A stretch of DNA of 6,150 bases, from positions 1 through 6,150 of the forward strand of contig WFLY01000289.1 of NCBI GenBank assembly GCA_009177215.1. The letters are read 5' to 3'. This DNA is from Bacillota bacterium. Lineage in GTDB: Bacteria; Bacillota; Clostridia; Lachnospirales; Lachnospiraceae. A model generated the notes under the pieces. It ran no database searches. It was not told where the DNA came from and saw nothing but the letters and a program-made list of their open reading frames with translations. The position numbers were made by a program, and so were the translations under genes. Shown here piece after piece: positions 2,626-4,401 of this stretch; position 1 is the first letter of the stretch, and every line of letters starts with the position of its first letter.

Positions 2626-2652
2626 TTATCGGCGGCTTCGGGGAATACTTTA
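2626..2652 (-). promoter_or_regulatory. Sigma-28 (FliA/SigD) promoter of the flgM operon
   Basis: On the minus strand the sequence reads TAAA (2652-2649), exactly 15 nt, then GCCGATAA (2633-2626). This is a full match to the flagellar sigma-28 consensus (TAAA-N15-GCCGATAA; SigD GCCGATAT in Bacillus). Transcription would start near 2619, leaving a leader of about 50 nt before flgM. The first three bases of the -35 box are the TAA stop codon of the upstream yhhQ gene, so the promoter abuts and slightly overlaps that gene. The consensus is established knowledge; use of this site in vivo is inferred. Confidence 0.93.
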
Positions 2653-3360
2653 GTCCGAAGTCGAAAAAAGTTGCCGCTCGTGCATTCTCCGCGCCAGATA
2701 AACGGCAGGTGTGTCCAGCAGACTGGTAAAAATATAAATAACATAGCTTGACAGGAAAATAGAGCGCAGGGTCGCCGCATCATAGGTTCCCACAAACGCA
2801 AACAACGTAAATAGCAGGGTATTTAGTATCTGACTGACCAGGGTTGAACCATTGTTGCGCAGCCACAGAAACCTTCTCCTGTCACCAAAACGCTTTTCGG
2901 TGAACGCCCACCATTTATGATAAAGCCATACGTCAAATAATTGACTGACAGCATATACCAGTAATGAAGCAATAATCATCCTCGGTGTATTTGAAAATAC
3001 AACAGAAACGGCTCCCATCATGGTATCGTTCTCACTGGGAACATACAATAGCCAGCTCTGAGAAAGCAGCAGGAAAAACAGGGAGGCAAATATCCCGATA
3101 AAAACGGCATTATTTGCCGCTTTTTTTCCCTCGCACTCCGACAGAATATCGGTGATCAAAAAGGTTACTGCAAACAGGACATTTCCGAGCGTCTGTTCCA
3201 TACCAAAGGCATTAATCAGCAGCACCACTTCTATATTAGCCAAAACAGCAGCCACTGCCGACAGACAGTAAAGCCCCGACCTGCCAAACAGCCTGTATCC
3301 CACAACCGCCGTTCCAAAAATAAAAAATACCGAACCTAATAATAACATTTCATTTATCAT
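2650..3360 (-). CDS. yhhQ: Queuosine precursor transporter, YhhQ/VUT family
   Basis: Integral membrane transporter of the VUT (YhhQ) family; the E. coli member takes up the queuosine precursors preQ0 and preQ1, and homologues in other bacteria are known that have shifted to queuine. The protein has 236 residues, normal for the family, with about six to seven hydrophobic segments (roughly 5-25, 29-52, 57-74, 81-107, 124-147, 173-193, 198-222). Family-typical motifs are LANIEVV (40-46), TDILSE followed by GKKAANN (70-84), a QLFDVWLYHKW stretch in TM5, and WLRNNGSTLVSQ ahead of TM6. The start at 3360 has AAAGG 7 nt upstream. It lies 13 nt behind the radical SAM gene, clearly the same transcript, and their joint function in queuosine salvage fits. 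The exact substrate (preQ1, preQ0 or queuine) cannot be read from sequence. Confidence 0.9.
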   Translation of the reverse strand: MINEMLLLGSVFFIFGTAVVGYRLFGRSGLYCLSAVAAVLANIEVVLLINAFGMEQTLGNVLFAVTFLITDILSECEGKKAANNAVFIGIFASLFFLLLSQSWLLYVPSENDTMMGAVSVVFSNTPRMIIASLLVYAVSQLFDVWLYHKWWAFTEKRFGDRRRFLWLRNNGSTLVSQILNTLLFTLFAFVGTYDAATLRSIFLSSYVIYIFTSLLDTPAVYLARRMHERQLFSTSD

Positions 3361-3373
3361 GATGATACCTTTC

Positions 3374-4069
3374 TTAATCTCCCACTCCGAAATCCGTATT
3401 ATTTATCAAAATATCAATTCGTTCATTTTCTCTGTACAGAGGATAAAGCTCATCCGTAAAACGCTTAATCACCTCTCTGTCAGGCATAATATCCGATGTG
3501 TTTCCACACATGACATTAATGCATATCCGTTCAAAATACCGAAGCCCCAGTTCAATATCCCGCCTCATGCCTTCCGTACTCTGCCCACTGACGCCAAACA
3601 GAAAATTGGCTTCGTCAAAATACCTGCTTATAATGGAAGGGTTCCTCTCCCTAATACCCTTTTTCAACACATTTTCCCTGAAATCATAATCAAAGGTCTC
3701 CAGACCCAGCTTCAGCTTTAATTTAAAATCCCTGAAGCTTTCCCGCAGCGCCGGAATTCTGTTCCGATACAGATAATGAGCCTCAAAATGGATTGTCGAA
3801 ATATTTTTTTCATGGCAAACGCATTTGATTAAAGAAAGGGTTTTGTCATCCAGCTCAAACACCGAACCGGAATTAATCACCTCCAAATCGCCGTATTTGC
3901 CTGTCACAAACTGAAGCACAGCCCTGTTTAACGCAAAATTCTCCCCGGGATCCTTGCAGCTGTCGCTATAATAGTCGCAAAAGGTACACTTCTTATATAC
4001 ACAGCCACTGCCCCGCAGGAGAACAATTTCACGTTTATTTTTTTCTTCAATAATATTATATCTTTCCAT
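3374..4069 (-). CDS. queL: Radical SAM protein, probable queuine lyase (QueL) of queuosine salvage
   Basis: The product has a radical SAM iron-sulfur motif near the N-terminus: RGSGCVYKKCTFCDYY, with C23, C28 and C31 (numbered from the ATG at 4069). The spacing is CX4CX2C rather than the usual CX3CX2C. The remaining 200 residues look like a compact SAM barrel (NSGSVFEL about 83-90, IHFEAHYLYRNR about 110-121, KLKLGLETFDYD about 135-146) ending in NNTDFGVGD. The short length (231 aa) and the tight linkage to a YhhQ transporter match the radical SAM queuine lyase QueL of gut clostridia, which converts queuine to preQ1; the specific function is inferred from context. An in-frame ATG at 4120 would add 17 residues, but those codons are the intrinsic terminator at 4085-4106, so the 4069 start is preferred even though no good Shine-Dalgarno precedes it. 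The ATG at 4120 does have AGGGG 4 nt upstream, which leaves some doubt. Confidence 0.72.
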   Translation of the reverse strand: MERYNIIEEKNKREIVLLRGSGCVYKKCTFCDYYSDSCKDPGENFALNRAVLQFVTGKYGDLEVINSGSVFELDDKTLSLIKCVCHEKNISTIHFEAHYLYRNRIPALRESFRDFKLKLKLGLETFDYDFRENVLKKGIRERNPSIISRYFDEANFLFGVSGQSTEGMRRDIELGLRYFERICINVMCGNTSDIMPDREVIKRFTDELYPLYRENERIDILINNTDFGVGD

Positions 4070-4084
4070 ATTGTTTTTCGGCAC

Positions 4085-4106
4085 AAAAAAACACCCCAAG
4101 GGGTGT
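4085..4106 (-). terminator. Intrinsic terminator/attenuator in the queL leader
   Basis: The minus strand reads ACACCCC-TT-GGGGTGT (4106-4091), a perfect 7-bp stem, followed immediately by a run of six further T residues (4090-4085). There is no T run on the plus strand side, so it acts only on transcripts heading into queL. It lies 33 nt downstream of the riboswitch-like element and 15 nt before the preferred queL start, the layout of a transcription attenuator. An AGGGG (4129-4125) can pair with CCCCT (4103-4099) in the 5' arm and would serve as antiterminator; that pairing is inferred. Confidence 0.88.
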
Positions 4107-4138
4107 AATACAAGGGACATAATGCCCCTATGCCTATA

Positions 4139-4205
4139 CTCCCTAGTTTTGATTAGGCAAAGCCTTACTGAAACATCGCCCCGGCAGGATGGTTTCGAAC
4201 TGCCG
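4139..4205 (-). ncRNA. Putative preQ1 riboswitch (class I-like, atypical) upstream of queL-yhhQ
   Basis: The minus-strand leader forms a hairpin CGGCAG (4205-4200) / CTGCCG (4187-4182) with a 12-nt loop, TTCGAAACCATC. Further 3' is an A-rich tail, AAAACTAGGGAG (4150-4139). A GC-rich stem with a loop of this kind and an AAAAACUAGGAG-like tail is the preQ1-I layout, as I recall it from other bacteria. It precedes an intrinsic terminator and a gene pair for queuosine salvage, exactly where preQ1 sensing would make sense. The odd part is that 27 nt separate stem and tail, whereas class I has only a short A-rich linker. That insert carries a small hairpin (AGGC-TTT-GCCT) and GATGTTTC, which can pair with loop bases GAAACCATC with one bulge. 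A class III (HLout pseudoknot) or a new variant is therefore also possible. The leader role is firmer than the class. Confidence 0.55.
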
Positions 4206-4220
4206 TTATGCTATTGTGAC

Positions 4221-4250
4221 TATATAAGCATATATTTATAAGCTTGTCAA
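4221..4250 (-). promoter_or_regulatory. Probable sigma-A promoter of queL-yhhQ
   Basis: A perfect TTGACA (-35) reads on the minus strand at 4250-4245. A -10-like TATATA follows at 4226-4221 after 18 nt (TATAGT at 4224-4219 is an alternative at 20 nt). Transcription would begin near 4214, placing the riboswitch-like hairpin about 9 nt into the transcript, as usual for compact riboswitch leaders. Confidence 0.65.
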
Positions 4251-4295
4251 CACTAAATGCTTTTAGACTGTTAATTCGATTGTACTTAATAGTAG

Positions 4296-4319
4296 CAGTT
4301 CAGATGTCTGTCCGAACTG
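4296..4319. repeat. Inverted repeat, operator-like dyad
   Basis: CAGTTC (4296-4301) and GAACTG (4314-4319) are perfect reverse complements across 12 nt; two further matching positions inside each arm make the dyad 8 of 12 per half-site. A 24-bp dyad upstream of a carbohydrate gene suits a dimeric repressor or activator site. It could also fold as an RNA hairpin if transcription starts upstream. Confidence 0.5.
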
Positions 4320-4344
4320 TTCATTTAATAATAAATCAAATTTT

Positions 4345-4401
4345 CAGTACAATAAGTCATTTTACTTCTAAAAGAGCAAGAGTAAAATCAGTTATGTACT
4401 G
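4345..4401. repeat. Long imperfect inverted repeat upstream of the GH43 gene
   Basis: CAGTACA (4345-4351) pairs with TGTACTG (4395-4401), and ATTTTACT (4359-4366) pairs with AGTAAAAT (4381-4388). The short stretches between them pair partly, giving about 19 matched positions per arm with one bulge and two mismatches, and a 14-nt loop. No T run follows, so it is not an intrinsic terminator. It may be an operator (it overlaps both candidate promoters) or a leader RNA hairpin. Confidence 0.7.

Follow-up and report, generated by a model that had tools for sequence, protein, structure and literature searches.

A type I preQ1-I-like leader of a Clostridia queL-yhhQ operon with a predicted helical insert between P1 and L3

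Few well-studied aptamers are smaller than class I preQ1 RNAs, and in PreQ1-II (RF01054), an HLout pseudoknot, the connection between the first stem and the pseudoknot strand carries an extra helix. The type I model was reportedly defined by McCown in 2014, and because that type I alignment might contain members of the kind described below, the novelty of a split class I form is provisional. In the available excerpts of the literature, class I RNAs are described as simple H-type pseudoknots, classes II and III carry extra helices on the connecting strand (PMC11625349), and type III has a linker of variable length (PMC10622847). The type I signature, as excerpted from PMC11625349 and PMC8752633, consists of UU at the top of the 5′ P1 strand, UC ahead of the 3′ strand and, in the tail, a conserved C and CUA. 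The link between class I and queL genes is already known from the PreQ1-I riboswitch before queK-qrtT-queL in Clostridioides difficile, a class I switch before a queL operon as here, which we liken by description only and for which the excerpt mentions no insert (PMC11477304). A helix inserted in class I L3 is not described in the excerpts of PMC11625349, PMC8752633, PMC10622847, PMC11477304 and PMC11130926.

The locus compared here with these systems is the queL-yhhQ leader (minus strand, 4205-4139) in a 6,150-nt stretch of Lachnospiraceae DNA, referred to as the window (Table 1). By its sequence and by comparison with other genomes, this leader is real and conserved. Like preQ1-I type I RNAs such as that of Carnobacterium antarcticus (PDB 8fb3; PMC8752633 and PMC11625349, in excerpt), it carries UU, UC, an A-rich L3 and CUA-GG and lies before Q genes; unlike them, its L3 is preceded by a helix, P3, and the distance from UC to CUA is 41 nt, against 16 nt in the fetched relatives with 6-nt linkers. 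The UU atop the 5′ P1 strand is U4199 U4198, the UC before the 3′ strand is U4189 C4188, CUA follows the A-rich L3 as AAAACUA (4150-4144), and the short P1 is closed at the loop by G4200-C4187, a G-C pair found in 114/114 elements. What departs from the compact H-type pseudoknot, in which P1 is joined directly to L3, is a predicted helical insert of 27 nt (counted 4181-4155, preceding AAUCAAAACUAGG), and for this reason we file the RNA as a variant working like type I. P3 would start right after the sixth P1 pair and end three bases ahead of CAAAAC. An earlier note on this DNA had recognized a stem, loop and tail like preQ1-I with 27 nt between stem and tail; these elements are confirmed in the letters, with conservation far above chance, and the length holds under the count given above, but the self-folding of the insert and the terminator at 4106-4091 had been overlooked.

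Table 1. Coordinates of the leader, its flanking signals and the downstream genes in the window.
Feature	Position	Strand	Basis
Promoter-like TTGACA, 17-nt spacer, TTATAT	4250-4245; 4227-4222	(-)	10/12 consensus letters
P1 stem, CGGCAG/CUGCCG	4205-4200 with 4187-4182	(-)	sequence, folding
P1 loop, UUCGAAACCAUC, 12 nt	4199-4188	(-)	sequence
P3, helical insert in L3, GGGCGA with UUGCCU	4181-4176/4160-4155	(-)	predicted folding and family comparison
P3 inner part, GUUU with AGGC	4174-4171/4165-4162	(-)	predicted folding
A-rich L3 strand and tail, AAUCAAAACUAGGGAG	4154-4139	(-)	sequence
Tail, CAAAACUAGGGAG	4151-4139	(-)	sequence
P2 (predicted), tail GG with loop CC	4142-4141 with 4192-4191	(-)	letters only
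Spacer hairpin in the tail-terminator gap, predicted in both states	4133-4110	(-)	constrained folding
Intrinsic terminator, ACACCC-CUUG-GGGUGU and U-run	4106-4085 (hairpin 4106-4091)	(-)	1 found, 0.3 expected
queL, radical-SAM queuine lyase	3374..4072	(-)	PDB 6p78 'Queuine lyase', E 6.9e-56 over 232 aa
yhhQ-type queuosine precursor transporter (QPTR/COG1738)	2650..3360	(-)	TIGR00697, 166.5 bits, cut-off 50.95

The host genome, which is 90.7% complete, contains tgt, and for QueC it yielded only a fragment under the cut-off, which is no proof of absence; the presence of tgt and the lack of a full QueC match would fit a salvage life style. Beyond queL-yhhQ, the minus strand of positions 1-2569 holds what we take to be genes resembling flagellar FlgK, FlgN and FlgM.

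The class of the RNA was assessed with covariance models. The Rfam 15 PreQ1 model (RF00522) did not match the window even at E 10, and at its gathering cut-off it detected 0 of the 18 loci tried out of the 37 described below. This silence alone is not evidence of novelty, since ordinary short relatives also score under the cut-off (24.5-29 bits for 10 of them, vs a cut-off of 39). A covariance model trained on 61 short-linker elements scored the window at 27.6 bits (E 2.6e-5 in its genome), where it was the sole match at E < 0.05, and within the class this model gave a match at E 0.01 in 113/245 genomes, the strong matches being of ordinary length (~40-46 nt). Membership of the window RNA in PreQ1 class II or III was also weighed, since those classes have extra helices on the connecting strand (PMC11625349, in excerpt); PreQ1-II moreover shares the queT context with the window family, and PreQ1-III (RF02680; Ruminococcaceae and metagenomic queT leaders) shares the extra helix, the queT context and Clostridia. 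Against this, neither RF01054 nor RF02680 matched at E 10 in 3900-4400, the type I signature residues are present, class I letters make up the loop, tail and pocket, and no second pseudoknot domain of the PreQ1-III kind was seen in the window, so that membership in either class is extremely improbable. A wider search with RF02680 gave no matches, its controls being equally silent, and the Rfam matches that did appear in 3900-4400 (MicC, Srn266 and others) were far under their cut-offs and were set aside. The earlier note had offered an unusual class I RNA, a class III member or an undescribed variant: the first and last of these agree with the type I residues, the match to the short-linker model and the unusual insert, while the class III proposal is not borne out by RF02680. 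The Rfam comparison that it proposed was run and gave no match at E 10 to the preQ1-I, II or III model, of which the first under-scores relatives.

To describe the spread of the core, the 22 nt of P1 and loop were located in other genomes (GTDB contigs) at 37 loci and 38 sites, vs ~0.03 by chance (2 x 257 billion / 4^22), and the titles of most of these loci are Clostridia or families and genera within it. The tail CAAAACTANGG lies within 260 nt at 37/38 of these sites, which were found by stem-loop alone, in agreement with the conservation of the tail that the earlier note had proposed to examine; the one site without it is a second copy of the 22-mer in L065 (7628-7649). The sites are located mostly ahead of queL, yhhQ or queT, and the 37 tailed ones have a 4-nt linker in three cases and at least 14 nt in 34. 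This search enriches the long form, because the P1 of the 22-mer accompanies long inserts. With a looser pattern, 64 sites were found in 59/391 genomes of the class (reversed-pattern control, 0), and only five of the 64 had long inserts. Long inserts were present in 4/397 genomes of the window's own family, the window included, in 6/21 genomes of one other family and in 2/16 of one order; the long-insert form is a minority overall. A pattern-free check, in which 30 loci of QueL homologues were fetched from the 34/299 genomes with a QueL match, found the same leader element at 12/30. The nearest QueL relative (L002, 67% identical) showed no such leader in its DNA examined, and the window's insert is shared by no close relative.

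A phylum-wide search of 398 genomes gave three matches besides the window, vs two reversed-pattern matches, and these were judged to be background, as P1 is missing from two of them and pairs at 4/5 positions in the remaining one. Three matches in IMG/VR all lack P1 and are each antisense to an open reading frame, and hence were attributed to chance; a search of IMG/VR with the second loop described below gave 0 matches. Fourteen further regions were fetched from covariance-model matches. Most were chosen because the match was odd in length or scored low, and they are therefore no random sample. They comprise six elements of a second loop subfamily (L186, L188-L192), two with the standard loop (L184, L185), one that looks like a chance match (L187) and five that did not fit the loop pattern (L193-L197), among which L195-L197 stem from 26-35-bit matches of ordinary length. 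The tail of L190 reads ACTACGAAG where others have NGG.

The genes following 111 elements are the queT cluster (58, one representative tested), queL (28), yhhQ (14), queC (1), a dehydratase-like gene (6) and unassigned genes (4), and two further elements have no ORF after them. The dehydratase-like gene follows six short-linker elements (L069-L072, L114, L116) and resembles the 2-hydroxyglutaryl-CoA dehydratase D-component (PF06050, 47.1 bits, one representative); it is not an obvious queuosine gene.

P1 pairs at 5/5 positions in 113/113 elements, with eight different stems. When the loci fixed by the 22-mer were left out, 80/80 elements pair at P1 positions 1-5, with several pair types, and 78/80 pair at position 6 (permuted mean, 55.6). 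Both-side changes occur at 4/6 P1 pairs, a number that 20/500 shuffles reach, and the covariation score of P1 was 0.237 vs 0.043 for shuffled and at most 0.030 for slid alignments, a score that no shuffle reached; the covariation in P1 that the earlier note had proposed to look for is seen at four of its six pairs. The P2 letters (loop CC, tail GG) fit but never vary, partly since the search pattern fixed them.

We further analyzed the insert across the family. After a 5-bp P1, the linker is 4 nt in three of the 113 elements, 6 nt in 68 and 14-72 nt in 42, and none has a linker of 7-13 nt. The 42 long-insert elements include the window and comprise 40 distinct inserts; they are not independent events, because some are close relatives, as in the case of four nearly alike 15-nt inserts. 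They have no common sequence, and their common shape is a helix joining both ends. A P3 of at least 5 bp anchored near both ends is found in 34/42, compared to a shuffled mean of 6.06 and a maximum of 13 in 1000 sets; likewise, an insert's own arms pair in 34/42, vs 14.9% of 1722 foreign-arm combinations and a permuted maximum of 15. By the rule used, an anchored 4-bp stem is absent from 5/42. In a sequence-only alignment of six genomes of one genus, both-side changes were observed in 6/6 P3 pairs with 97% of cells paired, and the covariation score of the whole structure was 0.633 vs 0.242 shuffled; of five measures, shuffles reach only the number of further pair types (49/500). A second alignment (A2, eight queL leaders with a GATA loop) was misregistered in P3 and is left out of the evidence. 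In the second loop subfamily, TTCGCAAAATC, represented by six elements in genomes of another family, the inserts fold as hairpins in 6/6. Their energies run from -28.3 kcal/mol to a weak -0.9, and between 0 and 23 of 500 shuffles match them in stability; the genes after these elements are queT-like by eye only. As predicted from these sequences, P3 is kept as a helix, not as a sequence, across the family. Because the loop and tail residues match and the inserts share a common shape, the leader is assigned, on sequence grounds, as a class I type I core with a predicted helical expansion in L3.

For the window, P1 and P3 together are predicted at -18.6 kcal/mol, which equals the free minimum of 4206-4139, and the P3 pairs have predicted probabilities of 0.74-0.99. 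Taken by itself, the window's P3 is unexceptional: a stem of its 6 bp arises in 17% of shuffled inserts, G-U accounts for four of its ten pairs, and the leader 4215-4120 as a whole is no more stable than shuffles (z -0.07). The case for the predicted P3 would be unconvincing from the window and is drawn from the family comparison. An ordinary class I type I riboswitch whose insert is neutral spacer DNA, folding by accident, would be consistent with the 6-nt linker of most elements gathered (68/113), from which the insert appears dispensable in evolution. It accounts poorly for pairing between the insert ends that greatly exceeds shuffles and foreign arms and shows both-side changes, for insert folding in two loop subfamilies and for the absence of 7-13-nt linkers among the 113 elements, and we regard it as quite improbable.

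The earlier note had also proposed that GATGTTTC of the insert (4177-4170) pairs with loop bases 4196-4188 through eight Watson-Crick pairs and one bulged C, giving an H-type pseudoknot on P1 or a P1-breaking hairpin, as part of the aptamer or as an apo-state switch. The complementarity is present in the letters, and only 2% of 200 shuffled inserts equal it. Among the 42 long-insert elements, at least eight such pairs occur in the window only (0.1 expected), at least seven in two, the other being L107 (0.6 expected), and at least five in 5/42 (9.9 expected), so the covariation suggested for 4170-4177/4188-4196 is not found as a conserved feature, and the complementarity is not clearly more than chance as judged from these sequences. 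The pairing would compete with P3 and occupy loop bases on which P2 and ligand recognition depend in the known aptamer. The energy calculation, which covered the nested hairpin, gives this form -4.3 vs -18.6 kcal/mol for P1 and P3, i.e., 14 weaker, with a predicted probability of 0.00. Either form is highly unlikely to operate here, and we retain the reading in which the insert folds on itself as P3.

The signals flanking the leader suggest how the RNA may act. The promoter-like sequence of the window has counterparts scoring at least 10/12 upstream of P1 in 53/118 elements vs 2.9 in shuffles, and the transcript is predicted to start a few bases ahead of P1; a stricter promoter scan, demanding A at position 2 of the -10 element, reported none. 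Downstream, the terminator segment CCUUGG (4101-4096) can pair with the tail segment CUAGGG (4146-4141) as an antiterminator, and since the tail can pair in this way with the terminator loop, a bound ligand would shift the balance towards termination, and the RNA is predicted to be an OFF switch. Unconstrained folding of the free transcript to 4084 gives P1, P3 and this antiterminator (-40.1), whereas the terminator forms (-38.3) when loop and tail are withheld to mimic the ligand-bound P2. Two of the antiterminator pairs are G-U, and its advantage holds no further than 4084: in transcripts reaching 4078 or beyond, the terminator is part of the unconstrained minimum too, so the switching choice would fall during polymerase passage. 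An exact downstream complement of CUANGG is found in a minority of elements only, often with another base at N, and covariation of the tail base N with the terminator was set aside as not general across elements. Terminator-like hairpins follow 69/113 elements vs 2.8 in shuffles, and in 35 of the other 44 a long reading frame opens within 25 nt of the tail, from which the family appears to have transcriptional and likely translational forms. A similar arrangement, in which an aptamer strand is shared with the antiterminator and the ligand favours termination, is described for the preQ1-I type II terminator switch of Bacillus subtilis (PMC11625349, in excerpt), from which the window differs by its type I letters and P3.

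In the mechanism that we propose, preQ1, perhaps as a stacked pair of molecules like that of other type I RNAs, would bind between P1 and P2 in a pocket comprising U4199, U4198, C4188 and C4146, and P3 would stack under P1 and hand the strand over to L3, so that the pocket would be unchanged. Without ligand, the tail would pair with CCUUGG and transcription would continue; with ligand, P2 would hold the tail and the terminator would form, such that high preQ1 would shut the queL-yhhQ operon. Because QueL makes preQ1 from queuine (PMC11130926, in excerpt), the circuit would be one of product feedback. We consider it very probable, from sequence and predicted folding, that the leader is a type I preQ1-I core whose L3 is split at the foot of P1 by the predicted helix P3, likely turning expression OFF via termination upon preQ1 binding. 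Another 7-deazapurine, e.g., queuine, the substrate of QueL, could be the ligand in place of preQ1, given that the leader adjoins genes for a queuine lyase and a queuosine-precursor transporter, and P3 could, speculatively, reshape the edge of the pocket. This is unlikely, however, as every loop and tail position contacting preQ1 in type I RNAs is retained, and in many elements this core precedes queT, and once queC, not queL.

Similarly split relatives recur in other Clostridia, unflagged by Rfam where tried. These split class I relatives are a blind spot of the current Rfam model, for which the insert is not the sole reason, short relatives being under-scored too, and in Clostridia they would tie preQ1 feedback to queuine salvage (QueL, YhhQ, QueT). 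A tentative extension, which we rate at somewhat below even chances, is that class I has a modular expansion site between P1 and L3, which accepts helical domains irrespective of their sequence, 14 to ~230 nt long and with several branches, and leaves the pocket intact in an HLout-like arrangement; such a site could add a second input (a protein, a small molecule or a processing signal) and could bridge classes I and II/III. Relatives in which a helix free to vary in sequence holds together aptamer halves separated by tens to hundreds of bases would demonstrate that the fold is modular and would offer natural constructs in which a small riboswitch could receive a second domain.

Several larger inserts were noted. 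In L040 (868-889), L046 (2324-2345) and L058 (1313-1334), 186-188 nt lie between P1 and tail, forming a hairpin and a branched domain closed by GAAACAA/TTGTTTC, with queT by eye as the gene. L185 has, from base 104, a 226-nt insert, likewise with a branched domain, closed by GUGAAU/AUUCAC before a queT-like gene. In L184, from base 87, ~380 nt with repeated motifs separate the stem-loop from the tail, with a queT-like gene next; this stretch, without a clear closing helix, may be an insertion into L3. The base preceding CAAAAC in L3 tracks P1 pair 4: with G-C or C-G at this pair it is T in 33 and A in nine elements (one C left out), and with A-U or U-A it is T in three and A in 70, an association that may reflect an L3-minor-groove contact or shared ancestry. 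Finally, in L015 (1200-1364) a TwoAYGGAY RNA (RF01731, 104 bits) lies ~160 nt downstream of the riboswitch-like element.
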